A stretch of 64,000 nt of DNA, taken from assembly GCA_015057315.1 (NCBI GenBank), contig SVER01000006.1, forward strand, positions 1 through 64,000, given 5' to 3'. How positions within the stretch are numbered: position 1 is the first letter of the stretch; each line of letters opens with the position of its first letter. This stretch comes from Pseudobutyrivibrio ruminis. Lineage in GTDB: Bacteria; Bacillota; Clostridia; Lachnospirales; Lachnospiraceae. Positions 10,024 to 45,490 of the stretch are shown one piece after another. The notes under the pieces were generated by a model. It had not been told where the DNA came from, made no database searches, and saw only the letters and a list, made by a program, of their open reading frames with translations. The translations under genes were made by a program, and so were the position numbers.

Positions 10024-11310
10024 TTACTTACATACTATCTGATTTCGGCCTCCCTCTTTAGCCTCATACAGATTGGCATCGGCACGGCTAAGTGCCTCAT
10101 CCGTAGACTCACCTGCAATCATTGCTGTAAGTCCAAAGCTCATTGTAATTTGTCTGTCAGTATCAGGCACATAGATGGTTCGCACATCATCCATAATCAT
10201 AGACAATTCTCTTTTTGCGATATCAAGCTCCCTGCCATCAAATATCAGCAAAAATTCTTCGCCACCCCATCTAGCCGCAAAGCCTTTACCAACCATTCCC
10301 TTTTTCAGCTTGGCTGCTACCATTCTAAGCACCTCGTCACCCATTTCGTGTCCGTAGGTGTCGTTTACCTTTTTAAAGAAATCTATATCCGCAATGCATA
10401 CACAGTACTTCATTCCCATTTCCACCATGCGGATTCTTACCTCTGATAGCTTCTTATCAGCGGAACGTCTATTGTTAAGCTCCGTCAGTGCATCAAACTC
10501 TACCAAAGTCTTTAAAGCCCTTGCCATCTTCTTACCATCATGAGCTAAGCTCTTGATTTCGTCATCCTCCTGCATAAGCTCACGTGGCATTTCGTAATCA
10601 AACTCACCACCGGCAAGCTTGTTCATATATCTGTCCATCTTGAAGATTCTATCAGCAAGCTTCTTGTTGAACCTTACCATAATAAAACCAAAGAATACTG
10701 CCACCACAAGGCATATTCCGATAATCGGAAGGATATATCTAAATACTTGCTTTTGAACATCCTCCCCCGAACGGCACACCCCTATCATTCCCATGACTGA
10801 GCCATCAGCACCAGCAAAGGGTTTATAATAGGCAAAGCTTCTGGTGTTATATACCATTACATTATCGTAAAAGGCAGATGAGCCTGTATCAAGGACTTCG
10901 TTTTTAACCACTGCTGCTACCTTGGTTCCTACTGCGCTGTTGCCTGAGCTATCGCTGAGTGTAGTTAATAGTCTGGTATCATTGTAAAAAATGGAAACAT
11001 TGATGTTAAGGGTATCCGAAAGCTGAGCCATCAATGTATCATCACCATTAAGAGGCTGCTCCCCCTTGTATATGGACATTTCTCCATCATCACCCTCAAC
11101 TAAGTGAAAATCTCCATTGTAGAATTTGTCAAAGGTAAATCCCACCAGCTCAGCATCACCTATAAGCTCCTGCCTAATCTGGTCTGTTATGGATTTTCTT
11201 ACGATGCTGACACTTACCACCACTATTGCAACAGTCATGAGCGTAAGTGGAATCAGCGTCATCTTCAGCATCTGACGCTTCAAGCTGTTTTTAAACCCCT
11301 TATCTGCCAT
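10024..11310 (-). CDS. Membrane diguanylate cyclase with extracytoplasmic sensor (GGDEF)
   Basis: 428-aa protein that should make cyclic di-GMP from two GTP. TM1 is near residues 17-37, followed by an extracytoplasmic Cache-like sensor region to about 190, TM2 near 191-212 (YILPIIGICLVVAVFFGF), a HAMP-like linker and a GGDEF domain. The active-site motif is GGEEF at residues 349-353 in ARWGGEEFLLIF, and the substrate region DIDFFKKVNDTYGHEMGD is intact, so activity is expected. The product-inhibition site (RxxD just before ARW) is absent: the bases read VGKG there. It lies 36 bp upstream of the response regulator and may be cotranscribed with it. A c-di-GMP riboswitch occurs later in the same window. 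Confidence 0.93.
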   Translation of the reverse strand: MADKGFKNSLKRQMLKMTLIPLTLMTVAIVVVSVSIVRKSITDQIRQELIGDAELVGFTFDKFYNGDFHLVEGDDGEMSIYKGEQPLNGDDTLMAQLSDTLNINVSIFYNDTRLLTTLSDSSGNSAVGTKVAAVVKNEVLDTGSSAFYDNVMVYNTRSFAYYKPFAGADGSVMGMIGVCRSGEDVQKQVFRYILPIIGICLVVAVFFGFIMVRFNKKLADRIFKMDRYMNKLAGGEFDYEMPRELMQEDDEIKSLAHDGKKMARALKTLVEFDALTELNNRRSADKKLSEVRIRMVEMGMKYCVCIADIDFFKKVNDTYGHEMGDEVLRMVAAKLKKGMVGKGFAARWGGEEFLLIFDGRELDIAKRELSMIMDDVRTIYVPDTDRQITMSFGLTAMIAGESTDEALSRADANLYEAKEGGRNQIVCK

Positions 11311-27351: not shown

Positions 27352-27422
27352 ATGTGCCTAATTCTCCATAATACTCATGTTATCAAACATTGTACCATGA
27401 ATTCCTGCACATTTTGTGAATA

Positions 27423-27473
27423 AATAAAGGTTCTTGCGGGCTTTTTCATTAAGTGCCCACAAGAACCTTTATT
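27423..27473 (-). terminator. Terminator of the second protease gene
   Basis: A 19-bp stem with one mismatch (AATAAAGGTTCTTGTGGGC with GCCCGCAAGAACCTTTATT, 13-nt loop) starts 2 bp after the stop codon. It works equally in both directions; the T tract is short. Confidence 0.75.
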
Positions 27474-27475
27474 GA

Positions 27476-30400
27476 TTAATTAGCTTTTAATGTGATTGTT
27501 TTAGGGTTAATCTTAAATGTGTACTTCTTGGTGCCTCCGTAATTGCCCTTACCTTTGATAGTAATGGTAGCTTTACCCTTCTTAACGTTGTTCTGATAAT
27601 TTACAATGTCGTAATCATTTGCTGTAAGGGTATTCTTTCCAAACCTTACTACAAGGTCAGACTTCTTGATATATCTAGCCTTTCCTGTATAATCCAAGCC
27701 ATTCTTAAGATTGCTGTCCTTTGCAATAGACACCGATGCGCTGGAAACATTAGCTGAGATAATTCTATAAGTAAATGTAATCTTACCAGTATAAGCGCCC
27801 TTGCCAGTTACTGTACCCTGGATAATTGTTCCTACAGGAATAACATCGTATTTATCTACAGGATCACCTACTGCACGCCCTGCATCCACATAAGTCTTGC
27901 CCTGCTTTTTTGTAATAGGGTCTTTAATGTTTACATATTCATAGTAAATATTCTTTTCATAATCTGTGCCTGCTACAAGCTTCTTAAGCTTGCCATTATC
28001 GTCCATATCATTAAGCACTGGAGCAGATTTTACTTTACTTGAATTAACATTGTAAACCTTATCAGCTGCAGAAACTGTAACATCCTCTATGTTCTTCTGT
28101 CCTATGCTGTAATAGATTGGATCAAAAGCCTGCTTGCCAACAAAATTCTTCTTTGGCTTAATTGTTACCTTTACCTTATCATCTGCATTCTTGGCGATTC
28201 TGCCTGTGTTGTTGCTGTAGCTAATGCTGAAACAGGTCTTAACCACAGATGGATCAAGCTGCTTGTTATCAAATGTGATAGTTGGAAGCTTCTTAGTGCC
28301 ACCCTTGATGTACTTAACCTGCTCATCCATGCTTACCTTGATGCGGGCTCTGTTTGTAGAATCGTCCAGATTTACAGTACTAATTGCAAAAGCCTTGCTC
28401 TTTGTGTATTTGCCTGTGTACAGGTTCTTACCAACAATAACTATATTCTTGTTACCTGCATTTAATGTGTCCTTTGGAAGCTGAACATCATAGTCATCCG
28501 CTGTTACTTCCTTGCCATCTACAACAACCCTAACTGCCAAATCCTCTAGTGTATATGGCTCACCCTTATATTCGAAGAAGTCCTTACCAGTATTCTTGTT
28601 TGTAACAGTAACTGTGACATTCTTGTTGATAGGTGTGCCGGCAATGCTGTACTGATATGTAAGCTTGCCTTTGTATTTTCCAATACCGTAGAAGACATCA
28701 GTGTGCTTGCCAATATTTACTGATTTGTCTCTTACAAGGATGTAATCAACGCCCTCAGTAAGACCTGCAGCAACATATTGCTGTGTGTAAGCCGTTGTTG
28801 TGTATGGCACCTTACTTACAAACCCGCTAATCATCTTCTTTGAAAGAGCTGTTCCGCCCTTCACTGCGAACTTCTTAGTAACAGAACCAACCAGCTCCTG
28901 ATTATCACCAGTAATTGTAACCATGTAATTTCCACCAGTTACAATCTTGCTTCTGTTTCCATAATCCACAGAATCTGGAATATCCACATACTTGTAAGTG
29001 ATAGTGCACTTAGCAAGAGCAGCATCCTCAATCTTATTGCCATTAAGCTTTACAGTAAGTTTGATTTTGCCTGCCTGGTCATCTGTGCCCTGGCCGATTA
29101 CAACATCCTTTGAATCTACAGTAACAGATGCATTGCTTAGGCATTTTGTCTTATCTGCAACAAAGTAGATTAAAGTATGCTCGCCTACGTAGTTGCCCTT
29201 ACCAACAACCTTTACAGCCTTCTGACCTGCATTTTCTGTCATAGCATTTGATGTAGCCTGACCGTTTGCAGCATCAAAATATTCAAGGGTATAATCCTTG
29301 TTCTTTGAAAGTGTTACTGTCTTACCTTTTCTAACATCCTTGACAGTAACTGCTGCATTAATGAGCTTTCCTGTGTATGGATAAGCATCCTTAGCTAAGG
29401 TATATGTGGCTTCCCCATCAAATGGTTTTGGCTCAATTGTAAATGTATCTGTGTAAGTGCCCTTGTAATCGCCCTTACCTATGATTGAAATTGTAGCCTG
29501 GCCTGCATTTGTGTTCTTGGCAAGCTTGTAGGTGTAATCCACCTTGTTCTGTAAAAGCTCAACACCATCATATACTCTAAAATCTGCATCTGGTGTTAGC
29601 TTGAATGCAGCACCATTGTAGGTATATGTATTATTGTGGATTCCTGCAATCCAAATGCCTGTCTTTGGCGATGCCTCGTACTCAGCACGGTCAGCAGCAT
29701 TTTCGATTCTGCTTGATTCCTTGTCAGAGTCCTTGACTGTGTATGTAAATGTAGCTTCATCACTGTCTGTATAGCCTGAAGCTGTAGCCTTAGCCTTGAT
29801 AGTGTATGTACCTGCTTGGTCTAAGATAATGCCATCGCTATAAGTCTGCTGGGAACCACCATTTATCGTATATACGATAGTTGCATAGTTGGTTTCAGAC
29901 TCAAGAGTAACCACTGTTCCAATCTCTACATCTCCTGACTCCACTGATGCTTTGATAGTAGCAACCTTTGGAAAATCAATCCACTTAGCATAGATGTTCA
30001 TTGTTCTAACAGCTATGTTTGGAATAATACTATCCTCTGTAATCCTATCAGTATATAAAGAATCCCAATACCAACCGGCAAATACTTTTTCATCAGAAGT
30101 AAGTGCTGGTAATTTGCCTATCTTCTCACCTGTTACATGCTCTTCCTCTCCCAAATCTGCTGGAACAGTACCATACTTAGATATAGGATTAAGTAGGATT
30201 AGATATCTAGCACGTGGATCTACGTTTGCTGGCTGCCACTCAGCAATAATTGTGTGGTCTTCTGTAAGCTCTACTATTGATGATTCTGTAACAATTGGAC
30301 CATCTACAGTGTTAATGTGCCATGCAACAAATTCGTAGCCCTGGCGATATGGTGTGTATAAGGTATATTTAGCCCCAACAACCAGGTTTTCACCAATAGT

Positions 30401-33400
30401 CTCTCTTTCATTACCATAACTTAGAGTTCCTCCATTAGCATGATAGAGTACATGAACTCTTTCAGGCTCATCATCTTGCCAAATTGCATGAAGTGTGAAT
30501 TCAGCCTCCACTTTAGTCTCATCATATCCACTAGTAGAAATTATCTTATCTGTTGCGCTTACAATCTGGTTTGCATCAGTAGCAATTCTGCTCCATCCTT
30601 TAAATTCAGTGTCGTCCTTTGTAGGTGTCTCTAGCTCGCCAAATGCAGGGATTTTTTCATAAGTCCATGTATATGTCTTAGGCTCTACCTGGCTGCCACC
30701 ATTTGAATCAAAGTTAAAGGTAGCTGTATATTCTATAGGTTCGTATCTTGCGTGAAGACTATCATTATTATAAAGCCCCACTACATCTGTATCAGTGACA
30801 ATGGCTTGCTTAGCTGATGAGTACCAACCAACTGCACGATAACCTGCCTTATGTGGCACGTCTAACAATGTACCGTATGGCTCACCCTGAGTAAGATTTT
30901 TTTCACCAAGCATCCTACTGCGTTCATCATAGTAGTTAGCGGTAAATGTTACTACTTGTGTTGGTTTTTCTACCCAGTGGGCATAGAGGGTGATGTCTTT
31001 AGCATAGTTATATATATCACCTGCTTTTACTTCATTACCTTCAGACTTTTCAGTAAACCAACCATCAAATATATAGCCTTCTCTTGTAGGATTTGGTAAA
31101 CCATATATGCTAGAACCTGAAGTAAAGCTCTTAGTTGTAGTATTTACACTGCCATCATTTGGATCAAATGTAACATTGTATGTATTAGCTTTCCAAAAAG
31201 CAACTAATTTATGATTAGATGTTGATTTTAATGGTGTCTCTGCAGTTACTTTTGCTCCAGTCTCAGAATCGTAACGCCACTCAACAAATTCGTATCCTGC
31301 GCGTGTTGGTGTTGGCAAAACTCCATAGGCTTCATCTATATATACAGATTTTTCAGAAGGTGTTACCGTGCCTTTTCCTGCATCAAAAGTAATCTTTATC
31401 TTATTTAATTCAGTCCAGTGTGCATAGAATGTTGTATCATCAGCTATGTTGTACTTAATGTTCGAAGTATATTTATTTCCATCTGTTGCACCTGTGTACC
31501 AACCATCAAATTTATAATTTGGTCTTGTTGGTGTTGGTAGTGTTCCAATTGACGCATCAAATGTTACAGTCATTGGAGCAGCATCCACTGTTCCACCATT
31601 AGCACTAAAGGTGATAGTGTATGTATTAGCTTCCCATGACGCATAAATAGTGTGTGTAGACTTAGACTTTAATGCTGTTTCAGCTGTAACTATGTCTCCA
31701 GCAGCAGAATTATAGTGCCAGCCTGTAAATGTATAGCCTGTACGAGTTGGTGTTGGTAATGTTCCGTAAGGCTCGTCATTGTATACTTCCTTGTATGAAG
31801 GTGTAAGGCTATTTCCTGAGTTTACACTATAATTAATTCTAACTTTCTTCTTTTCAGTCCAGCGAGCAAGGAGCGTTATATTTTTGCTAAAATCACATTT
31901 TGATGTATCTTTATATTCCTTGGTGCTAGATCCTGATGTAAACCAGCCTTTAAACTCATATCCATATCTAGTTGGAACCGGTAGTTCGCCTATCGCCGCA
32001 TCATAGGTTACTTCCTTAGAAGCTACATCCACATTACCGCCATTTGCATTAAATGTAATAGTGTATTTGTTAGCTTCCCATGATGCCACAAGTGTATGGT
32101 TGGAATTCTTACTTACGGTAGTAGTTGATTCTATCTTATCACCGCTCTCTTTGTCTAAATGCCAACCGGTGAATTTGTACCCTGTCTTAGTAGGTGTTGG
32201 CAACTCTCCGTAAGCCTCACCTGGTTCTACAGATTTGCTAGTAGGAGTGACGTTGCCACCATTTGAGTTAAATGTAACCTTTACACTAGTATCATCTTTA
32301 TATTTAGGATAAACTGTTACCATTAAACCATACTTATCATCCAATACAATAGGTGGTGCGAAAGCATCGTCTAATGTGATAACACTGACAGGATACTTTC
32401 CTGCTGCATCCCATGACCAATAAGAGAACACCTTTCCGGTTGAACCTTCATAATATTTTGGCGAACCGTAGTCACTCATTTCACTTCTTTTTAGCAACGT
32501 ATATGGGAAGTTTTCCATATATAAATCAGTGGCAAAAACATTATAACTAGAAGTATAATATTCATCTAAATTATTTTTAGGCACCTTATAACGCAGTGCG
32601 ACCTTCTGCTTTTCCCACTTTGGATATACAGTAACATTTCCTGTCTTTGTGATAAGTGTCTCTGTCGTAAGCTTTGTTGTAAAAGCAGCATCTGAATATA
32701 AGCCTTCCAACGCGTAGCCTAATTTTCTAATCTGTGTATTATCAGGCAAATCACAATTACTAGCATCTCCTGGGTAATATTCTTTATATTTATCTGCTAC
32801 AATGATTCCGTCACCATCATATATGATTTCATAAGGCTTGATTGTTACACGTATATTAACCTCATATTTTTTCTTAGTAGTAGGATCTACATAAGAACCC
32901 ACAACAATTGTGGAACCTTTCTTGTAACCAAGAGTTATGACACCTGCGGCTGAAACTGTAGCTATAGATTTATCTACAACAGACCATGTAAGTTTTGATG
33001 CATCTTTGATGATGGAATCATCTGCCAATGTAACAGTGTGTGTAGTTCCGCCATAATCTAAAATTTCATCCTCGGATACACTTAATTCTCCTGATACATC
33101 ACCAGTAGTTACATCGTTTGTATAGATTCTTACTAAAGGATCTTCGCTATAGTTTGTTGTAAAATTTCCACTCTTTACTGAAAATCCTTTGTCCATGCTA
33201 GCAGTATGAGTAGTAACGCAATAATTCTTGCTATTTGGATTAGGATCACCTATTTCCTGTGGTCTAGTATTTTCAACTAACAGCTTAGGTTTCTCATTTG
33301 CGGCTGGAGTAATTGTCACCGTCACAGTAACATCCGTCTTTTTTGTTATCTCTAACCCACTTGTAAGCTTTACTGTGTAATTACCTGCTTCAACAACATT

Positions 33401-35239
33401 ACGAGAGCCTGAAACCGTATTCTTACCGTCTGTTACAGATACATCAATCTTAGAATTAGTATTCAATATTTCAGTAGATACAGCTTCGATTGTTTCACCA
33501 GCATCTACAGAATATTTTACTTCTATAGTAATAGGCTCACCATCGTTATATGATTCCATTGTATAATATGATACTAATTCACCTGTAGCGTATGAATAGG
33601 CATTATCATACTGGGTAGTGGATGCCGAAAATGCAGTTACACTTCCACTACTTTTTAAACCTGCATCATAATATGAAAGCCAGAAGTAACCCTGCTTTCC
33701 ATAATCATCCAAGCCCCAGCTGTTTCGTACTAACCATGCACCATTTCCTTCTGGCTTGCAGCCTTCATAGAAATTATCTTTTGAGAAATTATCGTCCCAA
33801 CCAACTAGAGCAATAGCATGATTGGTACTCTCAAAAGTGCCATAGAATGAATTATATGTAGATGAGTAATGGGCAGTACCAGTATATTCCTTTGTATCTA
33901 CCAAATTACCATCACTATATGAAGTAACTGTACGTTTAAAGTCACCTTCACTTGCCCAGAAGGATGCAGCAACAGCACCTCTTTGCATAATTGCTTCTTT
34001 AATTAAATCTTGATTCTCATAGTTGATTTCATAAGAATCGTAAATCTGAGCATAATCACTACTTACCGCAAATTTATCATCAAGTACAGCATCACCGCCC
34101 ATTGAATATGGAGCATAGTCTTCCTTGACTGCACCTATTTTATTCATCAATGCTCTTGTGGAAATTGTTGTATTACCACCTGTTGATAAATACTTTTTGC
34201 CTGCCGCACCTGCAAATGAAAATGTATCATTGTCATGACAATTCTTAGGATCATCAAAATTGTGGGCAGCAAAATATGCCAGCTGTAATTCTGACAAATC
34301 GATGCTCTTTGATGCTTCGCCCTTCGAAATCAAATCAGACTCGATAGCAGCCATAGTAGCAAAAGCCCAACAAGCTCCCTCTTGGCCCTGGTCACGGATT
34401 ACAGGGAGTTTGTCCTTATTGTTATATGTATCTGGAAGCGCTGCTTTAAGTAATCCACTCTCATTCTTTACCACTGGAACATCTGGCTTTGTTTCATCAG
34501 CCACATAGCCTGTAGGACCATCTGACTCATCCTCGACATACACCATCAGTGTAGGTTCTTCTGCATCCTCACTAACTTCATAATCTGTATCAATTACTGG
34601 CTCGAATTTATACTCGCCCAGATATTGGTCGTAATCATCCACTGCAACCCAATCATAGATGCGGATTTTTACTTCCTCATCCTTGTTTGTCATTGCATAT
34701 ATATATTTAGGGAATTTCTTTTCGAGACTAACTAATGCAAGCTTGTATTTAGTATAGATAGGAGTGATTTCATTGTAGCTAACAATCTGTTCTTCTTCCT
34801 CTTCCTCCTCTTTTTCCTTAAGAAGGTCCTCTTCTGTAAGCTCCTCTTCTACAAGTTCTTCCTCAGGAATTTCTCCCTCTAATTCAGCTTCATCTGCTTC
34901 TTTTGTGCCCTCAGCTGGTTCACCTTCTGCTGGTGTTCCACCTTCTGCTGGTTCTCCCTCAGCTGGTGCGCCACCTTCCACTGGCTCACCCTCTGCTGGT
35001 GTGCCTCCTTCTACTGGCTTCCCCTCAGCTGGTGTGCCACCTTCTGGTACCTCTTCTGCTGGCTGTTCACCATTTTGTGTATCAGAAGAAGGCTGATTTT
35101 CATCAGCATCTGTAGGCTCGTCTACTTTTTCGTTAACAGGCTCATCGCCTGTACTTGCAGCGTAAACACTCATATCTATAGATGTGAATGCCAAAGCCCC
35201 TGCTAATAGTAAACTTAATAGTCTCATTCGTAATTTCAT
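27476..35239 (-). CDS. Secreted papain-family (C1A) cysteine protease with about ten InlB-type repeats
   Basis: 2587-aa exported protein, close relative of the protease gene downstream. The frame is open 33 codons further up, but the ATG at 35239 begins a good signal peptide ([20 protein letters not shown]) and follows AGGAG by 10 nt. Order: signal peptide 1-28; acidic linker with four 11-residue repeats (67-110) to about 150; the ~90-aa domain shared with the other protease (152-243); C1A domain 275-535 with Gln284, Cys290, His474, Asn507; lectin-like domain about 540-700; Big_2-like; 10-12 InlB-type B repeats (about 805-1765); a chitobiase-C-like domain ([18 protein letters not shown], about 1770-1840); and GKGxYxG Ig-like repeats to the end ([15 protein letters not shown]). 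No classical wall anchor is seen. Own promoter and terminator. Confidence 0.9.
29960..32290 (-). repeat. Array of InlB-type B repeats in the second protease gene
   Basis: About ten repeats of 70-80 codons (Listeria-Bacteroides repeat, PF09479) with the core LPTPTRxGYxFxGW. From the third repeat they alternate in two kinds, one ending in LVASWEAN-like and one in LLARWTEK-like sequence, so the true unit is a pair of about 148 residues repeated three times. Confidence 0.75.
34910..35041 (-). repeat. Four 33-bp tandem repeats encoding an 11-residue Pro/Glu/Gly motif
   Basis: Residues 67-110 of the second protease are four copies of [11 protein letters not shown] with small changes (T/A, K/E, V/A). 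The in-frame 33-bp unit is a likely site of copy-number change; the encoded segment is a flexible spacer between signal peptide and protease domain. Confidence 0.85.
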
Positions 35240-35288
35240 GATATCAGTACTCCTAAAAAATCCCATTTTCATCCATTGTGTTATACAA

Positions 35289-35317
35289 AATATATCATGT
35301 CGTATTAAACGTGTAAA
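35289..35317 (-). promoter_or_regulatory. Sigma-A promoter of the second protease gene
   Basis: TTTACA (35312-35317) and TATATT (35289-35294) with a 17-bp spacer, 50 bp before the ATG at 35239. Confidence 0.65.
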
Positions 35318-35380
35318 GTATAACGTTATATAATTCACAATTTTTTCTTATTTCTTCATCTGATATAATTTTTCCAGCGT

Positions 35381-35412
35381 AAAAAAAGACAGCGAGGTGA
35401 TTCTCGCTGTCC
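35381..35412 (-). terminator. Terminator of the beta-helix surface protein gene
   Basis: On the minus strand GGACAGCGAG and CTCGCTGTC form a 9-bp stem around a 6-nt loop followed by seven T. Confidence 0.9.
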
Positions 35413-35420
35413 TTAATGTT

Positions 35421-38400
35421 TTATTTCTTTTTAGAAAGCATACCTGAGATATTGACTTTCTTTGAAACAGTACCTGTATAATACTGCATTTCACCTTTGG
35501 TGCTACTAAAGTAAATATTAGAGTAAGCACTGCCTGTTACATTCTTTAGGTTATCAATCGTACCGTCTGTTACATTTAAGCTACAGTTGCCACCTAATGA
35601 AATATTCACTGGCTTTTTGCCTTTACCATCTGAAACAAAACTAATATTGTTTATATTAACAGTCTGATTCTTATCTACCTTAATAGTCATGCCCTTGTTG
35701 CCGTTATATCTAAGGCTTACTGGAGTCTCTCCTGTAATTGTAAACATTGGAGCCTTCTTAGCCTTTGGAATGTTGTAGATTTCTACTGGGTGCTTAGATG
35801 TTTCCGATTCCGGATTCACACTTAAGCTGTATTGTGCTGCCGTAAGCTTGTTGTTGATATCTGTTATTGCATCATTATATGAAATATATCTACCTACAAA
35901 ATTAGTTTTTTCAGAAGATGATACTACTGAAAGCTCATATCCTGGAACCTTTGAAAATACAGCTGTGTTGTAATAAAGCACGCCATTCTTTCTAACAATA
36001 GTTGAATCCTTACTATTAATAAACTGTCCAACATTGAATTTAAATGTGGCATTTCCTGATTCATCTTCAACAGCTACCGAATTAGTCTTAAACAGCTCAA
36101 TTACAGGTTTTTCACTAATCTTTGCTTTATCAAGATCAAGTGTGCCATTCTTTTCAAGATCAAAAAGATTTACATACTTTCCTGATTTATCCTTGCATAC
36201 AAGATTAATGTTTATAGGATGACCGTTACTTTCAGCTGAGTTGACGATAGTAATATTACTCTTAACTGCCTTTACTGTCTTCTTGTCCTTCTCTGTAGTA
36301 TATGTACAAAGTCCTGATATGCTATTGGACTCGCCATCACTGTATACTGTGCCAACAGATAGCTTGCCATTGCAGTTAAGTTCACTTTTTGCAGCAAGTC
36401 CTAGTTTATTTATCTTTGTTACATTTCCTGTTACATTTATCTTGCTACTCTCTAAAGCGAAGCCACTAAAAGCACCTGTTTTCTTGTTTGTAAAGCTTTC
36501 ACCTGCGCCTGTGATAGACTTGAGATTACTTTCCCACTTAACATCAGAGAAAAATAATATATGCTGTCCAACATTTATTGAAACAGGCTTGCTTGCATTG
36601 ATTTTTGCAGAACCTATCATTAGGTCACAAGTAAGATTTAGGCTGCTGTTTGCTATATCAAAATCATTAACTACATTACCTAAAATCATAAGCTTATCAG
36701 CACAATTAGCCGCTGGCATCACTAGATTCACTGGCTTATCAGCTTTTTTAAGTGGCACGATGAGATATTGCCCATTAGGATTCTTAATTGCATTGATTTC
36801 TGCAATTGCTTCCTTGTATGTTGCAAAACTAGCAATTTGTTCAGGATCAGCTAATGAGTTTTCTTCTTTAGACTCATATAACCAATAGTTTTCTTCTACT
36901 GTACTGTTGTCAACATAGAAGATTGAACCGCTCTTCTTAACGAGCTTTCCGCCTGAAACTGATGAATCCGTATATACGAATCTATTATTGGCTGCCTTTG
37001 GTGCCTTTACAATCTGGTACTTTGGATTGTTGTGAGCAAGTGAGCCATCCTTGAAGCCTTCGTAATTTACATCACTGCTTCCAAGCTCAACATAACCCTT
37101 TGTCTTATCCTTGTAGAGAAGCTTAATTTCAAGTGATGGTTCATTTGAAATATTTGCTGTTTCAATCTTGTTTGCTACAGTGATATTAGATGTAATCTTT
37201 GTAGCTAAAACCTGGCCCTTTACTTTTGCTGTTGCTACATTTGCTGTGCCCACAAAAGTTCTACGGTCGCTATCCTTTGATACAAGATTTCCAATGTTGG
37301 TTTTGCCATATACTGTAAACTTACCGTTTTCAAAATCAAGTGTGCCCACGTTGTTCATGTTGCCATTTACAACGATATCACCACTGTTTCTTACTATAAG
37401 TCCCGAAGCTGCATTTACACTACTACCTGTGATGTTGCCGATTCTGTCATTTGAAACTTCTGAATTCTTAAGTGTAAGTTTGAACTTTCCAAGTGTAGCA
37501 TTAAGCTTTGTATTTGTTCCGTTCTTTGCAGGGTTGTCTGCAAGCTTGATGTTCTCTAAAACGAGATTTGACTTAAGTGTGATTGCATTCTTAAGCTTGA
37601 ACTCATACTTTCCACTGACACCATCTGCTGGTTTGATTGTAATCTGTGCAGCCTTTGTTGCTGTTGTAAGATTCTCTGTAAGCTTGATTGGCTCTACATC
37701 CTGCTCTACCTTAGGATTAATGGCAAGAGTATAGTTCTTTGAAGCACTTCCTGCTTTGTTAATCTCTGCAAATGCTTCCTTAAGAGTAGGGTATGTGCCC
37801 CATGAGCAATTACCCTGGTCACTTGTTTCAAATACTTCTACCGCATATACGATAGGTTCCTCGTCAATGCGAAGTGCATTTGCAACCTTCTTTGTTGCAT
37901 ACTTGATTGTAGTGCTTGCGCCTGCAATGTTCTTTCCAATTACGAAATAACATGCTGGAGCCTGCTTCGCAAATACGATATCTTTTTTCAAATATGAATC
38001 AGCGCCTGCATAATCGTTTGCTGTTAAATACTTAGGCAATACATTTATTGCATATTCACTGATTTTAACATCATAAGGCTTTTCGCCTGTTGTTTTAACT
38101 GTAATATCCTTGGATGCTACATCAGCGTTAATCACACCAGAGATTGAAAGCTTGTTTGAATAGCTTGTACCATAAGTGATTGTGTTGCCAGCATCCATCG
38201 AATTAATATTTTTGAATGTAGCGGCTGTCTTTACATCAATCTTTGAGCTAGAAAGCTCTGCAAGGTTAGAAACGTTAATGCTTCCAGCTGTTGATGTAAC
38301 ATCAGCATATACTAAAGTTAAATTTGAAACGTTGATTGCACCTGTTGATTCAAGTGCTGCTCGGCTATCCGCGCCGCCGACAACTGTGATTCCACCCTTG

Positions 38401-40772
38401 CCAGTAGCTGATACTGAAGCAAATGTATTGTTAAACTTAACATTCTGGAATGTAAGTTTATGGGCGCCTGCATTCATCTTTGCACCTGACTTTGTAGATT
38501 CAAGTACAATATTTTGGAATGTCACATCTGTTGCAGGTACTAAATCTCCACCAAATGAAAGCTTTGTCTTGTCATTACCTACGATAGTAACAGGAGCCTT
38601 TGGAAGAGTAAGCTTGTCTAGTGTTGTATCCTCTTCGATAGTAATTGCAAATGTAAAATCCTTGCTATAGCTATACAGTAAATCTGCCTTAGCTACGGCA
38701 TCCTTCCATGTTGGGAAATACTCTGTATGATGGTAATTCTCTGGTTCTATATTATATGAATCCAGTCTAAATGTGAGCTTATCTGCTACGATATTTTCTC
38801 CAGAAAGGCATGGAACAAGCTTTGTATCACCACCCTCCGGCTGGTCAATTACAAGGGCTTTAAAATCTTTTGTACGACCTTTGTTGTAGAAAAGTGTATC
38901 GCCCTTTTTTATTTCAAGGAGTTTACCATTCTTATCTACTCTTCTGTAATGTATTGACTCTCCGCTAAATGAATCAATCGCAAGAGAATATAGTTCTACA
39001 CCTTCTTCTACATTTACGTAAGTATCGTAATATTCATTGATTCCTGGTCCATAATTGCTATAGTCTCCACGAATTGAACCTATTATTGCTTTTTTACCAG
39101 GCACTGCCTTGATTGTAATCTGTGGGCAGGAAACACTAATACTATTAACGTTTATCGCACCAAAAACAGCCTCTGTTCCTAATTGAATGTGTGCCAAGCT
39201 ATTATTACCAATATTAAAATCATAATTAGAGGTAATATCTACCTTGGAAAAATCTAAAACCGCACTAGCCTTATCAAATGTTATGCGATTATCTCCAAGA
39301 TTTAGCTTTGAACAATTTTCGCCAATCTTGGTATCTACATGTTGGAAATATACCTCGCATGGTAAAGTACCATCGCCATCAATTGTTATTGTCCCTGCAT
39401 TATTTAATGTGTATACAGAAAACCAAGCCGCTTTGTCAGGGAAAATGTTTGTACCAGTTGCCACTACATCGCCATATACTTCAACCATATATCGGTAATT
39501 TACATCACCAAGGCTGTTGATATATGTAATCATACTATTCCAGTCACTGAATGTATTTTGATCTAGGCGAACATCAGGTCCTGCTTCAGTAGAAGCTTCA
39601 AGTATAATAGGTGGCTGTTCACCTACAATATATTGGTAGTTATAGTAGCTTGTATCATAATATGCCTTATTAGAGGCTTTGCTTCCTTCTGGCTGAAGGA
39701 GAGTGAATTTATTCTTCTCCCAATCAGTTGGGCCAGCTGCTGTAAATGCTACTGTACCATTTGGCATTTCAATTAGATTGCCATCTGCATCGATTCTACC
39801 AATCTGTACTGGCTGGCTATCTTCTGTCAAAACTTCGGTAAATACAAGATTTGTGTTTTTATAACCTTTTATCGTAGCAGGACCTGCTTCAGCATTAGAA
39901 GAATTTTTCTTACCAATTAAACGCTTAATTTTAGCTGCGTTTTTAACAGTTAATGTATGGCTTTCTTCAATATAAGCCTTGTCTACGCCTACACTTGCAA
40001 ATGTAAAATCAGCATCCTTTGTATAGAAGGTACCACCTGAAGTATCTTGATAGATAGATGTTCCCTTTGAGCCCATATCAAACAGCTCTTCTCCAGAGTA
40101 ATCGCCACCCTTAGATATTGTAAGATTGTGTCCATTCAAGTTGATTCCATACGCCTGATTTACATCCTCAGGGACAAATGTGATATTCTCAAACTCGGTA
40201 TCACTTTCTAGGTAAACAGGCTGAAAGATATTAATTTTCTTAACACCATCGTTACCCTTAATTAATAGAGGGATATTCTTTTTAGGGATAATTTGCTCAG
40301 ACATTGTAGAATGTACATCAATATCCTTCATTATAAGGATTTCACATACTGAGTCAGATTCTTCCAAAGTCTCTATATATTTACGAGCTTCATGATATTT
40401 CTCAAACTTCTTTGTTACATCCCTATAGGTAACTATTACCTCAGGATCAGTAACTTCTTCCTCAGTAGATGTACCTTCTTCAAGAAGCTTCTTTTCCTCT
40501 TCCTCTTCTACTACAAGCTCCTCTTCAAGAGCTTCCTCTTCCTCTACTGATTCTGATTCAGCTTGAGATTCGTTAGATTCCACCTGAGTGTTGTCTTTTG
40601 ATTTCTCAGAATCAGCTTCGGTAGATGCTTTTTCTGGCTCTTCTGATATAGCCTCTGTTTCATGTACAGTGGTTTCGATTACATCATCTGAGCTCTCACT
40701 TGCCATTACTGGCATTGGGGTGCTAAATACCATAGCAACCGCCATGATTAAAGCTAGAATTTGCTTTTTCAT
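35421..40772 (-). CDS. Giant secreted surface protein of six beta-helix-like modules, under c-di-GMP riboswitch
   Basis: 1783-aa exported protein. The first ATG (40778) directly abuts GGAG, so the second ATG at 40772, 6 nt after AAGGAG, is the better start. A signal peptide (ends near PVMASES) and an acidic linker to about residue 108 precede six modules of about 280-325 residues, beginning near 110, 406, 684, 990, 1314 and 1626. Each opens with a helix of the type TYKEAIAEINAI, then a strand like YLIVPLK, then long runs of short beta strands (for example LTIKNAAKI, ITVVGGADS) that look like a right-handed beta helix, as in adhesins and pectate-lyase-like proteins. It lacks the protease, LRR and GKGxYxG parts of its neighbours. 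It ends in a basic KKK. Proposed adhesin or matrix protein; catalytic residues are not recognisable. Confidence 0.82.
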   Translation of the reverse strand: MKKQILALIMAVAMVFSTPMPVMASESSDDVIETTVHETEAISEEPEKASTEADSEKSKDNTQVESNESQAESESVEEEEALEEELVVEEEEEKKLLEEGTSTEEEVTDPEVIVTYRDVTKKFEKYHEARKYIETLEESDSVCEILIMKDIDVHSTMSEQIIPKKNIPLLIKGNDGVKKINIFQPVYLESDTEFENITFVPEDVNQAYGINLNGHNLTISKGGDYSGEELFDMGSKGTSIYQDTSGGTFYTKDADFTFASVGVDKAYIEESHTLTVKNAAKIKRLIGKKNSSNAEAGPATIKGYKNTNLVFTEVLTEDSQPVQIGRIDADGNLIEMPNGTVAFTAAGPTDWEKNKFTLLQPEGSKASNKAYYDTSYYNYQYIVGEQPPIILEASTEAGPDVRLDQNTFSDWNSMITYINSLGDVNYRYMVEVYGDVVATGTNIFPDKAAWFSVYTLNNAGTITIDGDGTLPCEVYFQHVDTKIGENCSKLNLGDNRITFDKASAVLDFSKVDITSNYDFNIGNNSLAHIQLGTEAVFGAINVNSISVSCPQITIKAVPGKKAIIGSIRGDYSNYGPGINEYYDTYVNVEEGVELYSLAIDSFSGESIHYRRVDKNGKLLEIKKGDTLFYNKGRTKDFKALVIDQPEGGDTKLVPCLSGENIVADKLTFRLDSYNIEPENYHHTEYFPTWKDAVAKADLLYSYSKDFTFAITIEEDTTLDKLTLPKAPVTIVGNDKTKLSFGGDLVPATDVTFQNIVLESTKSGAKMNAGAHKLTFQNVKFNNTFASVSATGKGGITVVGGADSRAALESTGAINVSNLTLVYADVTSTAGSINVSNLAELSSSKIDVKTAATFKNINSMDAGNTITYGTSYSNKLSISGVINADVASKDITVKTTGEKPYDVKISEYAINVLPKYLTANDYAGADSYLKKDIVFAKQAPACYFVIGKNIAGASTTIKYATKKVANALRIDEEPIVYAVEVFETSDQGNCSWGTYPTLKEAFAEINKAGSASKNYTLAINPKVEQDVEPIKLTENLTTATKAAQITIKPADGVSGKYEFKLKNAITLKSNLVLENIKLADNPAKNGTNTKLNATLGKFKLTLKNSEVSNDRIGNITGSSVNAASGLIVRNSGDIVVNGNMNNVGTLDFENGKFTVYGKTNIGNLVSKDSDRRTFVGTANVATAKVKGQVLATKITSNITVANKIETANISNEPSLEIKLLYKDKTKGYVELGSSDVNYEGFKDGSLAHNNPKYQIVKAPKAANNRFVYTDSSVSGGKLVKKSGSIFYVDNSTVEENYWLYESKEENSLADPEQIASFATYKEAIAEINAIKNPNGQYLIVPLKKADKPVNLVMPAANCADKLMILGNVVNDFDIANSSLNLTCDLMIGSAKINASKPVSINVGQHILFFSDVKWESNLKSITGAGESFTNKKTGAFSGFALESSKINVTGNVTKINKLGLAAKSELNCNGKLSVGTVYSDGESNSISGLCTYTTEKDKKTVKAVKSNITIVNSAESNGHPININLVCKDKSGKYVNLFDLEKNGTLDLDKAKISEKPVIELFKTNSVAVEDESGNATFKFNVGQFINSKDSTIVRKNGVLYYNTAVFSKVPGYELSVVSSSEKTNFVGRYISYNDAITDINNKLTAAQYSLSVNPESETSKHPVEIYNIPKAKKAPMFTITGETPVSLRYNGNKGMTIKVDKNQTVNINNISFVSDGKGKKPVNISLGGNCSLNVTDGTIDNLKNVTGSAYSNIYFSSTKGEMQYYTGTVSKKVNISGMLSKKK

Positions 40773-40803
40773 TTTCATCTCCTTACCAACAAATTAATCA
40801 AGT

Positions 40804-40834
40804 AAAAAAGGTTCCCTGAAAATTTCAGGGAACC
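40804..40834 (-). terminator. Terminator acting as riboswitch expression platform
   Basis: On the minus strand a perfect hairpin (GGTTCCCTGAAA with TTTCAGGGAACC) is followed by six T. It ends 14 nt before the AAGGAG of the beta-helix gene, inside its leader and just after the c-di-GMP aptamer, where a plain gene terminator would make no sense. Confidence 0.88.
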
Positions 40835-40847
40835 ACAAATTCATATT

Positions 40848-40918
40848 AAGCAACTGACTGCCATTTTACAGGCTCTAGAGTTTTGCGTCCCCCACTTTCG
40901 CAGAGTTTGCCCTATTTA
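40848..40918 (-). promoter_or_regulatory. Cyclic di-GMP-I riboswitch aptamer (GEMM-I)
   Basis: On the minus strand the conserved GEMM-I blocks appear in order: AGGGCAAAC (ending at 40905), a hairpin CTCTGC-GAAA-GTGGGG with the GNRA tetraloop, GGACGCAAA (40890-40882), the receptor-side CTCTAGAGCCT, and GGCAGTCAGTTGC at the 3' end, which closes P1 by pairing with GGGCAA. Spacing matches the clostridial members of Rfam GEMM-I as I remember them. It binds c-di-GMP and should control read-through into the beta-helix surface protein gene through the following terminator. Whether the ligand turns the gene on or off cannot be told without folding. Confidence 0.9.
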
Positions 40919-40934
40919 CTTTTCAAACGGGTTG

Positions 40935-40963
40935 AGTTTATCACGTTTTTTACATTGTGTCAA
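40935..40963 (-). promoter_or_regulatory. Near-consensus promoter upstream of the c-di-GMP riboswitch
   Basis: A perfect TTGACA (40958-40963) and TAAACT (40935-40940) are 17 bp apart. The predicted start is near 40928, about 15 nt before the aptamer. Confidence 0.85.
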
Positions 40964-41050: not shown

Positions 41051-44000
41051 TTAATTCTTATCCATAAGACTAAGAGTTCTTGCCACAATCCTGAAGTTTA
41101 CAACCTTCTGCTTGCTAGAAGTATTTGTGCCTGTAATGATAATCTTACCAGTACCTGCCTTAACATTTTCTACATTTGCAATAGTAACGTTGTACTCATT
41201 GGCTTTTAACTCCTTACCGGCAACCTTTACTGTAATATCATTCTTTGAAGGAATAATCTGCTTACCAGTGTATGTCTGAGGATTTATTTTTACTGATGCC
41301 TTTGAAAGATCGTAACCTACGCGGAATTCTCTTTCGATAGATTTGCCTGCGTACGCACCCTTTCCTTCGATTACTGCGATAATAGTTGTACCTGCTGGAA
41401 CAGTGTCCTTTGCCTTTACAGCCTCGCCCGCTTCTGCTACATAGTCGCATGCTTTCTTCTTAGCAGTTCTCTTGATTTCTGTTTCGTTTGCATACTTGTA
41501 TGATACAGTGAAATCCTTTTTGTTTGCCAGCTTCTTGTTTGTATATGTATTCTTAACAACGATTGAAGGATTTACACCATTTGCTTTACCAGTATAGGCT
41601 GCATCTGAAACAGTTACATCAATTATAGCTGCATCTGAAATATCGTAACCAGCCACTGGGCTGTACTCAAATGTCTTTGTTCCAACATAGTTGCCCTTAC
41701 CAGTAATTGTCATAACCACCTTTGCATCTGTGCCATAAACAACCTTGTTGCTTGGAGCCTGACCATTTACTGTGTACTTAACTGAATACTCGCTACCCTT
41801 AAGCAGAGTTCCATCAAATAATACCTTGAATGCAACTGGCTTATATACACCCTTCTTTGTAGAAGCTACTGGTGCAACAAAGCTAACCACATCTGCCTCC
41901 TTGATATCTGCTTTTTCTACATCGAATGTAATCTTGTAAGATCCCTTGAAGCTGCCCTTTCCAGTAATTGTCTGAGTAGCTGTCATTGTCTTGCTGTTAA
42001 CTTTCGCCTTACTAATTGTGTATTCTGACTTAAGGACTAAATCGTTACCTGTCCTAGTATTTTTGATTGACTTAAGAGCATTGTAGCCATTGTTGTATGA
42101 TACTTTATTGCTCTTTTCAATTGCAACGAATGGTTTATCACCTTCAATTGCATTCTTGATGTCTGCCTTGTTAATCTTAAAGTTCTTAGTAAGAACACCA
42201 AAGTATTCCTTACCATCCATTGTTACTACAACTTTTGCTGTACCAGCTGCAACATTCTTTTCGTATGATACAGTGTATGATTTTGCATCAATAGCTACTG
42301 CCTCTGTTTTCTTTGTTGCCTTAATCTGAAGATTCTTAACCGCTGGAGTATGAGCTGTTCCATCATAATCAAATGATGATTCTGATAATTCGAATGTTGT
42401 ATTTGAATTTGTAAGTTTTACAGCATCCTCATTTCCTTCAATGTTAAAACGAAGTTCAAGCTTGCCCTTTGTATTACCCTTACCTGTAATAATCATTGTA
42501 GGAGCAATGCTTGCGCCATTCTTGTTTACCGCATCATACTTTGCAATCTTCTTGTTGTTCTTGTATGAAACCTTGTAATCCTTGTTTTCTTCAAGAAGCT
42601 TCTTGCCATAGTATACCTGATAGCCAGAAAGCTTAACATTTGCACCTGTATAAACTGTACTTACCTTTGTTTCATCATAGATTGCCCCCTGGAATACAAC
42701 CCAGAACTTTCCTTCATACTCTGGCTTGTAAAGATCAGGTGTATCCTCTGCTGAAACTGAATCAACAACTGTTACTGTCCATGTGTTCTTTGGACTATCT
42801 GTCCAGTTTTCCTTTGTAGCGTACGCTGTGATTGTGTATGTATTACCTGCCTCTAAAGCGAAGCCATCACTGTATGTATTCTCGCTTGCAGCAGCATTTT
42901 CAGCCTTAACTGTGTAAAGGATTGTTGCATCTGCTGTTGCAGATTTGAAGTAGAACTTTGTGATATCTGTCTTCTCATCAGTTGGTAAAACTGTAAGACC
43001 ATTTGAATCTAAAAGCTCTGGTGCCTCAACAGTATCCACATTGTTCTTGTACTTAGCATAAAGTACCTGATCTTTTGCCTCGTCTGTAACCTTTGTATCT
43101 GCTGTTACAAGATCACCATCAGCTGTGAACCAACCCTTGAAGGTCTTGCCTGTAGCAGAAGGTACTGGAAGTTCTTTATCTGTATTGTCGTTGTACTTTC
43201 CATAAGTGCTGTTTTTGTATACTTCCATTGATGTAATTGCAACTGTTGCATTTACACCTGGGTTAAGTGTTACTGTGTAAATTGGGCCATCCCACTTAGC
43301 ATAAAGTGTGATGTTGCCTGACTGATTTGATACGTCAATTGTTGTAACACCGTTTACGCTTTTTTCAGTTGGCTTTGTGAACTTAGCATCCTTGAACCAA
43401 CCTGCGAACTTGTAGTTCTCACGTGTTGGGTCGGCGATTTGGATTGAACCATCTGATGCAAGATATCCAGCTGGATATGCGCCGGTTGCAACACCGCCAT
43501 TTAATTTATATGTTATAGACTTTGTGCTAACAATACGATTTTTATCAATGCCCTGTGCAATTAAAGCATTATATGTATTCTTTCCTGAACCAGTAATAAT
43601 AAAATAGGCTAATTCACATTCGCCAAAAACTTTATATCCCATATCAGAGATATTGGCTCCAAGGTAAACTTTTTCTAAACTTCTACAATTTCTAAATGCT
43701 TCATATTTTAGTGTCTTCACCTTTGATGGTAAGCTTATTTCTGTTATTGAGCTATTTTTAAATGCAGACTCACCGATTGTTGTTAAATTCTCTCCGGTAA
43801 ATGTAACTGTCTTTAATCCTGTTACACCACTAAATGCATCATTAGCTATTGTTGTTACTGATGCTGGTATTGAAAGGACATATCCTGGTGTAAATGTTGC
43901 ATTATTAAATATGCTTGGTAGTGTTACCATTCCCTCTGGTAACGTTACATTTGAAAGATTTCTTCCACTAAAGGTCGAATAACTAGCCTGAAAATTCTTA

Positions 44001-45490
44001 CCTTTTATTACAACTGTTGTATCCCCTGCTACTGGTTTTTCTGCTTCAAATGCTTCTGATTTTATTTCCTGTAAGCCTTCTGGTAACGTAATATTTGTCA
44101 GGTTTACACAATTCTTAAAGGCTTGATATTTTATTGTTTTCACCTTTGATGGTAGGCTTATTTCTGATATTGAACTGTTGTTAAATGCATACTCGCCGAT
44201 TGTTGTTAAATTTTCTCCAGTAAATGTAACTGTCTTTAATCCTGTTACACCACTAAATGCATAATCAGCTATTGTTGTTACCGATGCTGGTATTGAAAGG
44301 ACATATCCTGGTGTAAATGTTGCATTATTAAATATGCTTGGTAATGTTACCATTCCCTCTGGTAACGTTACATTTGAAAGATTTCTTCCACTAAAGGTCG
44401 AATAACTAGCCTGAAAATTCTTACCTTTTATTACAACTGTTGTATCCCCTGCTACTGGTTTTTCTGCTTCAAATGCTTCTGATTTTATTTCCTGTAAGCC
44501 TTCTGGTAACGTAATATTTGTCAGGTTTACACAATTCTTAAAGGCTTGATATTTTATTGTTTTCACCTTTGATGGTAGGCTTATTTCTGATATTGAACTG
44601 TTGTTAAATGCATACTCGCCGATTGTTGTTAAATTTTCTCCAGTAAATGTAACGGTCTTTAATCCTGTTACACCACTAAATACATAATCAGCTATTGTTG
44701 TTACCGATGCTGGTATTGAAAGGACATATCCTGTTGTAAATGTTGCGTTATTAAATAGCTTTGGTAGTGTTACCATTCCTTCTGGTAACTTTACACTTGT
44801 AAGGTTTCTTCCTTCAAAAACACTAAAATCGACATCTAGTGATTTACTCTCAATAACTACCTCTGTATCAACCTGATTATTAACACAAAATGCTTTATAA
44901 CCTATTTTACGCGTGCTACTAGGAATTACGATTTTTTTCAAATTTGTACAATTTGAAAACGACATATAACCTATTGATGTAAGCGTAGAAGGGAGAGTAA
45001 TCGATGTAATTCCTGTAACATTACTAAATGCATAATCTGCAATTGAAGTAATTCCTTCAGGAATTTCAACTGCTCCTCCATTACCTTTGTACTTTGTTAC
45101 TGTGTAGCCTTCAATCTCAAGATCTTCAGCGGTAATAGCTTCCAGCATCTCCTGCTCTTCAGCTTCCTCAACCTCTAACTCTTCTTCCACAAGAGCTTCG
45201 CCATCTTCCTGAGCTTCCTCAGAATTTGCCTCGCCTTCCTGTGTGTTAGTTGTCTCATTTGACTTATTATCATCATTTGAATCAGACTTGTTCTGATCTT
45301 CTGATGTTTCAGCATCGCTACTTTCCTGCTGTGAAGGTTTTTCAGTATTTTCTTCACTAATAGATTCTTCAGTTTTTTCGATGCTTGGCTCTGCTTCGTT
45401 TAACTCTGCTGCAAATACATTCATATCAACTGATGTAAATGTAAGAGTCAACGCAAGTGCAAAGCTTAAAAAACGTGTGAACTTGTTCAT
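41051..45490 (-). CDS. Secreted LRR_5 (BspA-type) surface protein with InlB and Ig-like repeats
   Basis: 1479-aa exported protein. The signal peptide is MNKFTRFLSFALALTLTFTS to about residue 28; an acidic Ser/Glu linker runs to about 122. LRR_5 repeats (about 125-625, e.g. ITLPEGLQEIKSEAF) include a 141-residue unit present in three copies, two of them almost identical in DNA. Two InlB-type B repeats (645-815) and a chitobiase-C-like domain (815-910) follow. From about 920 to the end are Ig-like repeats with ITGKGNYVG-type cores. The final ~300 residues closely resemble the end of the truncated gene at the right window edge. AGGAGG lies 5 nt before the ATG; own promoter and terminator. BspA-type LRR proteins mediate adhesion; that role is inferred. 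No anchor motif seen. Confidence 0.88.
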   Translation of the reverse strand: MNKFTRFLSFALALTLTFTSVDMNVFAAELNEAEPSIEKTEESISEENTEKPSQQESSDAETSEDQNKSDSNDDNKSNETTNTQEGEANSEEAQEDGEALVEEELEVEEAEEQEMLEAITAEDLEIEGYTVTKYKGNGGAVEIPEGITSIADYAFSNVTGITSITLPSTLTSIGYMSFSNCTNLKKIVIPSSTRKIGYKAFCVNNQVDTEVVIESKSLDVDFSVFEGRNLTSVKLPEGMVTLPKLFNNATFTTGYVLSIPASVTTIADYVFSGVTGLKTVTFTGENLTTIGEYAFNNSSISEISLPSKVKTIKYQAFKNCVNLTNITLPEGLQEIKSEAFEAEKPVAGDTTVVIKGKNFQASYSTFSGRNLSNVTLPEGMVTLPSIFNNATFTPGYVLSIPASVTTIADYAFSGVTGLKTVTFTGENLTTIGEYAFNNSSISEISLPSKVKTIKYQAFKNCVNLTNITLPEGLQEIKSEAFEAEKPVAGDTTVVIKGKNFQASYSTFSGRNLSNVTLPEGMVTLPSIFNNATFTPGYVLSIPASVTTIANDAFSGVTGLKTVTFTGENLTTIGESAFKNSSITEISLPSKVKTLKYEAFRNCRSLEKVYLGANISDMGYKVFGECELAYFIITGSGKNTYNALIAQGIDKNRIVSTKSITYKLNGGVATGAYPAGYLASDGSIQIADPTRENYKFAGWFKDAKFTKPTEKSVNGVTTIDVSNQSGNITLYAKWDGPIYTVTLNPGVNATVAITSMEVYKNSTYGKYNDNTDKELPVPSATGKTFKGWFTADGDLVTADTKVTDEAKDQVLYAKYKNNVDTVEAPELLDSNGLTVLPTDEKTDITKFYFKSATADATILYTVKAENAAASENTYSDGFALEAGNTYTITAYATKENWTDSPKNTWTVTVVDSVSAEDTPDLYKPEYEGKFWVVFQGAIYDETKVSTVYTGANVKLSGYQVYYGKKLLEENKDYKVSYKNNKKIAKYDAVNKNGASIAPTMIITGKGNTKGKLELRFNIEGNEDAVKLTNSNTTFELSESSFDYDGTAHTPAVKNLQIKATKKTEAVAIDAKSYTVSYEKNVAAGTAKVVVTMDGKEYFGVLTKNFKINKADIKNAIEGDKPFVAIEKSNKVSYNNGYNALKSIKNTRTGNDLVLKSEYTISKAKVNSKTMTATQTITGKGSFKGSYKITFDVEKADIKEADVVSFVAPVASTKKGVYKPVAFKVLFDGTLLKGSEYSVKYTVNGQAPSNKVVYGTDAKVVMTITGKGNYVGTKTFEYSPVAGYDISDAAIIDVTVSDAAYTGKANGVNPSIVVKNTYTNKKLANKKDFTVSYKYANETEIKRTAKKKACDYVAEAGEAVKAKDTVPAGTTIIAVIEGKGAYAGKSIEREFRVGYDLSKASVKINPQTYTGKQIIPSKNDITVKVAGKELKANEYNVTIANVENVKAGTGKIIITGTNTSSKQKVVNFRIVARTLSLMDKN
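43831..44676 (-). repeat. Two 423-bp tandem repeats, nearly identical
   Basis: Units 43831-44253 and 44254-44676 differ at about five positions by eye. Each encodes 141 residues with several LRR_5 motifs. A third, more diverged copy starts at 44677. The exact in-frame period and near identity point to a recent duplication or gene conversion. Confidence 0.92.

Follow-up and report, generated by a model that had tools for sequence, protein, structure and literature searches.

Two reports on Clostridioides difficile describe class I c-di-GMP riboswitches as OFF switches and class II riboswitches as ON switches, and give as class I targets the flagella, the protease PPEP-1/ZmpI and one calcium-binding putative adhesin (PMC11477304, PMC6200980). 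In the same reports the adhesins CD2831 and CD3246, which are cleaved by PPEP-1, are assigned to class II (ON) switches. A previous, sequence-only reading of the DNA described below had drawn a parallel with C. difficile, in which adhesins and a protease would be controlled by riboswitches of the present kind; the parallel holds for the protease and for one putative adhesin, but CD2831 and CD3246 fall outside it as class II targets (PMC11477304, PMC6200980). That putative adhesin, CD2797, is lowered in expression by c-di-GMP (PMC6200980, PMC11477304), and resembles the case presented here in having a class I riboswitch before the gene of a putative surface protein. It belongs to another organism, and the likeness concerns the riboswitch class and its place before the gene. 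In Cd1, the riboswitch of the C. difficile flgB operon, aptamer and terminator are reported to coexist and to compete with an antiterminator that is only transiently stable, the outcome being OFF (PMC9262584). Bc2 of Bacillus thuringiensis is likewise a class I riboswitch with a terminator before a surface adhesin gene, that of the collagen adhesin Cap/CbpA, but is reported to be an ON switch (PMC4933901, PMC7423583). CdrA of Pseudomonas aeruginosa shares with the product studied here a large predicted beta-helix and regulation by c-di-GMP; it differs in being raised by c-di-GMP and in resembling two-partner-secreted adhesins, and the abstract of its report names no riboswitch (PMC2847200). 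Class I riboswitches before adhesins are thus published in C. difficile and B. thuringiensis, and therefore neither the sensor nor its pairing with adhesin-like genes is new. The novelty attached to this locus at first was overrated for that reason and because a GEMM-I leader also precedes a Pfam beta-helix protein in another genome of the family (G039, L053). Among the matches listed in a literature search, no paper linked c-di-GMP riboswitches with Butyrivibrio, Pseudobutyrivibrio or Lachnospiraceae.

Here we analyse a leader in a 3.4-Mb draft genome of the genus Pseudobutyrivibrio, in keeping with the Lachnospiraceae-type host that had been suggested. The window is the whole stretch of DNA analysed, 64 kb in length. 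Its MTHFR gene shares 97% identity with that of a Pseudobutyrivibrio MAG from roe deer and 79-93% with those of the other Pseudobutyrivibrio records compared, which places the window in this genus or very close to it. Minus-strand positions 40963-40772 hold, in order, a promoter-like site, a c-di-GMP-I aptamer, an intrinsic terminator, a ribosome binding site and an ATG. The features are as follows.

40935..40963, minus strand: sigma-70-type promoter-like site, TTGACA-17-TAAACT, with TG before the -10
40846..40921, minus strand: c-di-GMP-I (GEMM-I) riboswitch aptamer, RF01051 at 55.2 bits, E 4.5e-8
40882..40893, minus strand: proposed antiterminator 5′ strand, GGGGGACGCAAA, made of the P2 3′ side and the conserved core (RNAfold)
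40827..40839, minus strand: proposed antiterminator 3′ strand, UUUGUG, one bulged G and UUCCCU (RNAfold/RNAduplex)
40804..40834, minus strand: intrinsic terminator, 11-bp stem, 3-nt loop and six T, hairpin 40834-40810
40779..40784, minus strand: ribosome binding site AAGGAG, 6 nt before the ATG at 40772, by eye
35421..40772, minus strand: putatively riboswitch-controlled gene, 1783 aa, signal-like start, predicted beta-helix modules
35381..35411, minus strand: terminator closing the beta-helix gene, GACAGCGAG/CTCGCTGTC hairpin 35411-35388, seven T

The covariance match to RF01051 is full length (model positions 1-87 of 87) and scores 55.2 bits against a gathering threshold of 35, with an E value of 4.5e-8 for the 64-kb window searched with 4227 families and 5.7e-10 in the genome search. 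RF01051 is the sole Rfam family above threshold within the window; the subfamily model RF03167 (c-di-GMP-I-GGC) reached 54.6 bits, below its own threshold of 59. Conserved blocks GGGCAAAC, a GAAA-capped P2, GGGGGACGCAAA and GGCAGTCAGTTGC lie inside 40921-40846, and the blocks expected of GEMM-I are all present (GGCAAAC, a GNRA-capped P2, GACGCAAA, and P3 with CAGYC...UUGC). One pair is non-standard in the RF01051 alignment and P1 is not clear by eye. Of 200 dinucleotide shuffles of the 126-nt leader, 198 fold less well than the leader itself (z -2.5). The RF01051 score, the layout and the shuffle result together show that the leader is real and dismiss a chance match. By family membership it is a c-di-GMP-I (GEMM-I) riboswitch, predicted to bind c-di-GMP. 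The sequence-only reading had recognised a consensus promoter, the ordered GEMM-I blocks and a hairpin with a U-tract on the minus strand; each lies where it had put it, and its assignment to RF01051 is borne out by a score above the Rfam threshold.

The base before GCAAA, which we take to be the equivalent of the selectivity base G20 of Vc2, is G in this aptamer, the form that goes with c-di-GMP. Moreover, the genome encodes 23 GGDEF and 9 EAL matches, along with 6 Flagellin_N matches, and the window itself includes a GGDEF gene that also has an sCache domain (10024-11310). Riboswitches for 3′,3′-cGAMP were originally annotated as c-di-GMP-I (PMC9262584), but given this base and this set of enzymes, we consider it very improbable that another cyclic dinucleotide such as cGAMP is sensed here.

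The aptamer appears to sit in a 5′ leader, between the promoter-like site at 40963-40935 and the ATG at 40772. The former consists of TTGACA (40963-40958), a 17-nt spacer and TAAACT (40940-40935), matches 10 of 12 consensus positions and includes the TG; the same place in a second genome of the genus (G015) holds TTGACG-17-TATACT, likewise with TG. A consensus match of this sort makes the site a candidate promoter and is no proof of function. Between 27000 and 46000 the scan gave 51 promoter-like sites where chance would give 62.3, and hence no excess, whereas terminator-like sites are in mild excess (15 against 9.9 expected, sd 2.8). For the gene itself, the start at 40772 is better spaced than the ATG at 40778, which would give 1785 aa in place of 1783. 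Downstream, the gene is closed by the terminator at 35411-35388, whose hairpin was listed on the plus strand and whose minus-strand T run was read by eye, and a promoter-like site at 35317-35289 precedes the next gene, which encodes a papain-family protein. The gene before the beta-helix gene (41051-45490), with BspA-type leucine-rich repeats, is followed by a AAGCAAGGTC...GGCCTTGCTT hairpin with a T run, seen by eye. These terminators and the promoter-like site mean that the switch most likely governs one gene. The beta-helix gene appears to stand alone under the riboswitch, with the proteases and leucine-rich repeat proteins predicted to lie outside the unit. An operon with the papain-family proteins is disfavoured, a terminator and a promoter-like site separating the genes; the protease neighbours, to which the sequence-only reading had drawn attention, are therefore probably outside the switch. 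At 20881-35338 the window encodes two giant proteins (2156 and 2620 aa), both of which have a papain-family domain and Listeria-Bacteroides repeats.

The locus is conserved in G015: the two proteins share 82% identity along their length, and an alignment that runs from the promoter into the next gene shows 83%. The terminator of G015 keeps the stem and has a diverged loop. In both leaders it starts 11 nt past the aptamer with no base in common, and therefore a bound aptamer and a terminator can coexist. Upstream of the promoter, G015 has an extra reading frame of 2075 aa (L042:3726-9953) between the leucine-rich repeat gene and the promoter. The few bases that separate its stop from the promoter show no terminator by eye, so that read-through from this frame may also be halted at the riboswitch terminator.

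We consider that the leader is probably a transcriptional OFF switch of the c-di-GMP-I class for a single gene. Without ligand, as the polymerase passes the terminator 5′ strand, UUUGUGGUUCCCU would invade the aptamer and pair with GGGGGACGCAAA, and this antiterminator would hide the terminator 5′ strand long enough for transcription to enter the gene. At high c-di-GMP, the ligand would lock P2, P3 and the GACGCAAA pocket and so block the antiterminator; the terminator would then fold and transcription would end at about 40804. The secreted beta-helix protein would be made at low c-di-GMP, in the free or swimming state. The design shares with Cd1 a class I aptamer and a separate terminator and, as predicted, would also share an antiterminator composed of a terminator strand and an aptamer strand. 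It differs in the aptamer strand used, which for Cd1 lies at the aptamer 3′ side (reported pairs with G86 and C87; PMC9262584) and in the present proposal would be the P2 3′ side together with the internal GACGCAAA core, and in the target, which is a flagellar operon for Cd1 and a predicted secreted protein here.

In the proposed 3′ strand, UUUGUG comes from the linker and the start of the terminator and UUCCCU from the terminator 5′ strand. RNAduplex gives -14.2 kcal/mol for the two strands. For an RNA that ends with the terminator 5′ strand, the RNAfold minimum is the antiterminator, with P2 and the pocket destroyed. The earlier suggestion of folding the leader with and without an aptamer constraint to look for an antiterminator thus yields a predicted one, better by 5.1 kcal/mol, which is the cost of enforcing P2, P3 and the GC pairs at that length in the window (4.0 kcal/mol in G015). 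The cost falls to 3.0 kcal/mol in the window and 1.7 in G015 once the terminator is complete, and rises at the first length to 6.6 and 5.2 kcal/mol, respectively, if in addition the base before GCAAA is left unpaired for the ligand. This cost would fall to the ligand and to tertiary contacts, both of which RNAfold disregards. Both antiterminator strands are identical in G015 while their surroundings differ, and GAATTTGTGGTTCCCTG (40842-40826) is unchanged there, although neither the aptamer nor the terminator stem includes its first 8 nt.

Once the full terminator is transcribed, the terminator fold wins at equilibrium, and therefore the switch must be kinetic. The same dominance of the complete terminator is what would be expected of an inert leader, one that binds c-di-GMP and hardly regulates, its strong terminator acting as a near-constant brake. 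Bc1 of B. thuringiensis is reported to be such a case, binding c-di-GMP with expression unchanged (PMC11218506), and the non-standard aptamer pair and indistinct P1 noted above point the same way. We nevertheless think it improbable that the leader is inert, given that G015 keeps the aptamer (three differences in 76 nt), the linker and the terminator strand whilst the flanks have diverged more.

Another rival is an ON switch, in which c-di-GMP would prevent the terminator and the protein would be made at high c-di-GMP. Its best opening is a pairing of the AUAGG before GCAAA with the CCCU of the terminator strand, since this pairing is compatible with P2 and P3 and spares both. With P2 and P3 alone enforced, both leaders show it (for RNA ending at the terminator 5′ strand, 3.24 expected pairs between AUAGG and the tail in the window and 3.08 in G015). 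In G015 it dominates once half of the terminator 3′ strand is made, with 4.13 expected pairs where the core has 1.70. With the terminator complete and P2 and P3 enforced it is nearly gone, at 0.11 and 0.04 expected pairs. It also occupies the base before GCAAA, which presumably contacts the ligand. Class I ON switches are on record: Bc2 is reported to be one, before a collagen adhesin (PMC4933901), and one C. difficile gene with a class I riboswitch rises with c-di-GMP, although the abstract of that report terms class I uniformly ‘off’ (PMC6200980).

Terminator layout across the family bears on the same question. Our layout sample comprised 155 RF01051 matches from 96 genomes (L010-L059, L072-L178 and the window), part of the matches found. 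In 38 leaders the scan gave no terminator, leaving 117, and 15 more scored below 23; with both sets dropped, 102 well-scored leaders remained. In 21 of these the start of the terminator falls within the aptamer 3′ end, as in the ON-type pilM riboswitch, and in 69 it lies 0-60 nt after the aptamer; 12 show neither layout. With 21 leaders thus ON-like and 69 OFF-like, sequence may suffice to tell which way control runs. The pilM-type feature, a terminator 5′ strand containing the aptamer 3′ end, is absent from the leader studied here; with the terminator 11 nt beyond the aptamer in both the window and G015, a ligand-bound fold can leave the terminator free. An ON switch is therefore rather unlikely in our estimation. 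The sequence-only reading had left the direction open; anatomy and the comparison with Cd1 favour OFF, which we regard as the likelier direction.

The antiterminator pairing was compared with several controls. Pairing with the tail takes up 7.05 of the 8 core bases in the window, a value that none of 300 shuffles reaches (mean 1.73); the G015 value of 6.20 of 8 is reached by 4% of 300 shuffles. By energy the pairing is ordinary. The duplex energy of the window is matched by 21.3% of 1000 shuffles, its coupling energy is -3.8 against -3.4 in shuffles (33% as good), and that of G015 is -4.1 against -4.3 (48% as good). Elsewhere in the genus, G012 and G020 show no core pairing and G013 has only 2.96 of 8 (8% of shuffles). 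For a family-wide test we took leaders with separate terminators, of which 57 of 69 remained after near-identical ones were dropped, G015 standing for the window. Aptamers pair better with their own terminator 5′ strand than with swapped ones (-9.58 against -8.75; p 0.0002, the lowest value that 5000 permutations can give), a shuffle test of the same 57 leaders gave p 0.002, and a version with longer strands gave -11.5 for own against -10.4 for swapped (p 0.00005, the minimum for 20000). The terminator 3′ strand, used as a negative control in the 57 leaders, gave no own-pairing signal (p 0.20). A position-specific core test found 5 of 57 leaders pairing at least 4 core bases, with 3.6% expected (p 0.055), and the corresponding test of the 3′ block found no excess (7 of 57, 12.2% expected). 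Among the 40 leaders whose terminator lies at most 25 nt away, which is the type of the window, the shuffle test gave p 0.108 and the swap test p 0.006. Family-wide support for the proposed antiterminator is thus modest, and several shuffle controls are neutral for this leader.

The sequence-only reading had made the target a giant six-module beta-helix protein displayed on the surface. The giant protein is upheld as the riboswitch target and has a signal-like start, and a beta-helix fold is supported as a prediction: the predicted modules fold as beta-helices, nearest to the cellulose-binding tapirins, whose fold takes rows 1 and 2 of the structure matches. The Foldseek matches are weak, with a best E value of 0.013 for the long model and 0.10 for a module. 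The product thus has the predicted fold of right-handed parallel beta-helix proteins but gives no Pfam match such as Beta_helix, and it is tapirin-like in predicted fold with no sequence link found to the tapirins of Caldicellulosiruptor. Searched with Pfam at E 0.001, it matched 0 families, with no Beta_helix, adhesin or anchor domain; no NCBIfam family came above its cut-off (NF053819 scored 17.9 against 47), and PDB sequence searches gave no convincing match. The six modules stand in part: the motif at module starts was found in five copies by pattern and one more by eye, and a 1096-residue model has a helix at four module starts, but self-BLASTP at E 1e-3 found no internal repeat. An LPXTG-type motif with a hydrophobic tail is absent from the C terminus, which ends NVTGSAYSNIYFSSTKGEMQYYTGTVSKKVNISGMLSKKK; the genome has 5 sortase matches. 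With no sortase-type anchor seen and no Pfam domain, the proposed surface display is left unsupported. The product may be secreted, as its signal-like start would suggest, and may have a role in plant-fibre adhesion.

Within the draft genome a single RF01051 match was found, 150 of 193 first-look candidates having been scored; a second riboswitch of this family was looked for among the same candidates and none was recovered. A search with RF01786 gave no match in the genome, but none in any control genome either. At least 6 of the 29 genus genomes, this one included, have an RF01051 match, one each. The gene behind it encodes the beta-helix protein in this genome (G000) and G015; at that place G012 and G020 have an MCP-type chemotaxis protein, G013 has a zinc-ribbon protein and G004 an EAL protein. 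The G013 aptamer (L041:10001-10078) is 87% identical over 78 nt to that of the window and is followed by a different terminator and the zinc-ribbon gene; in the 20 kb around it nothing else aligns to the window at E 1e-10. As identity is confined to the aptamer, the aptamer therefore recurs with a different platform and gene.

The beta-helix protein family is narrow. It was found in 4 of the 29 genus genomes, being split into several reading frames in G010 (L182), and a profile search found the protein in 3 of 299 sampled family genomes, this one included, the other two being partial. A short-peptide scan of named genomes gave no relative. The genome itself holds a paralog (C50) that is 42% identical. 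Leaders of the GEMM type were also sought before this paralog, a further one in G015 (C46) and a relative in G020; none was seen by eye in the 250 nt upstream and none gave an RF01051 match.

Lastly, we surveyed c-di-GMP-I leaders across the family. RF01051 matches occur in at least 135 of 397 sampled Lachnospiraceae genomes; match counts are lower bounds, at most 39 candidates having been scored per genome in the genus and at most 10 in the family. In the sample of 155 leaders, a downstream frame was readable in 118 and 37 had no usable one. By a simple rule, applied without a signal-peptide program or control set, 80 of the 118 frames start with a hydrophobic, positively flanked signal-like stretch. 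Pfam matches among 104 non-redundant downstream frames, many incomplete at the end of the examined stretch, included CAP (10), transglutaminase (9), GGDEF (7) and EAL (3). Secreted targets therefore look common in the family, and the beta-helix case fits the pattern. The base before GCAAA, counted in 126 of the 155 leaders with 29 left out, is G in 102, A in 18, T in 1 and C in 1, with 4 not read. As this would be the selectivity site, some of the 18 aptamers with A for G could prefer another cyclic dinucleotide. Two side observations came from the survey. In G039, a c-di-GMP-I leader precedes a Pfam Beta_helix protein (L053:7398-8696, E 8.7e-18). Tandem c-di-GMP-I aptamers occur in G326 (C7 and C14), G148 (C10), G206 (C55), G045 (C3), G406 (C1), G365 (C17) and G327 (C26), the last with three in a row.

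In summary, we tentatively offer a fuller account of the locus, which in its entirety is doubtful: a single c-di-GMP-I riboswitch would act on a nearly genus-restricted, tapirin-like giant protein through a variant OFF mechanism whose antiterminator takes the GACGCAAA core, such that a fibre-binding protein would be made whilst the cell is swimming and stopped once c-di-GMP rises on attachment. If true, this fibre-binding protein would reverse the usual adhesin rule. Whatever the fate of that account, the locus offers a clean case from a rumen bacterium in which a c-di-GMP riboswitch appears to control a single gene.
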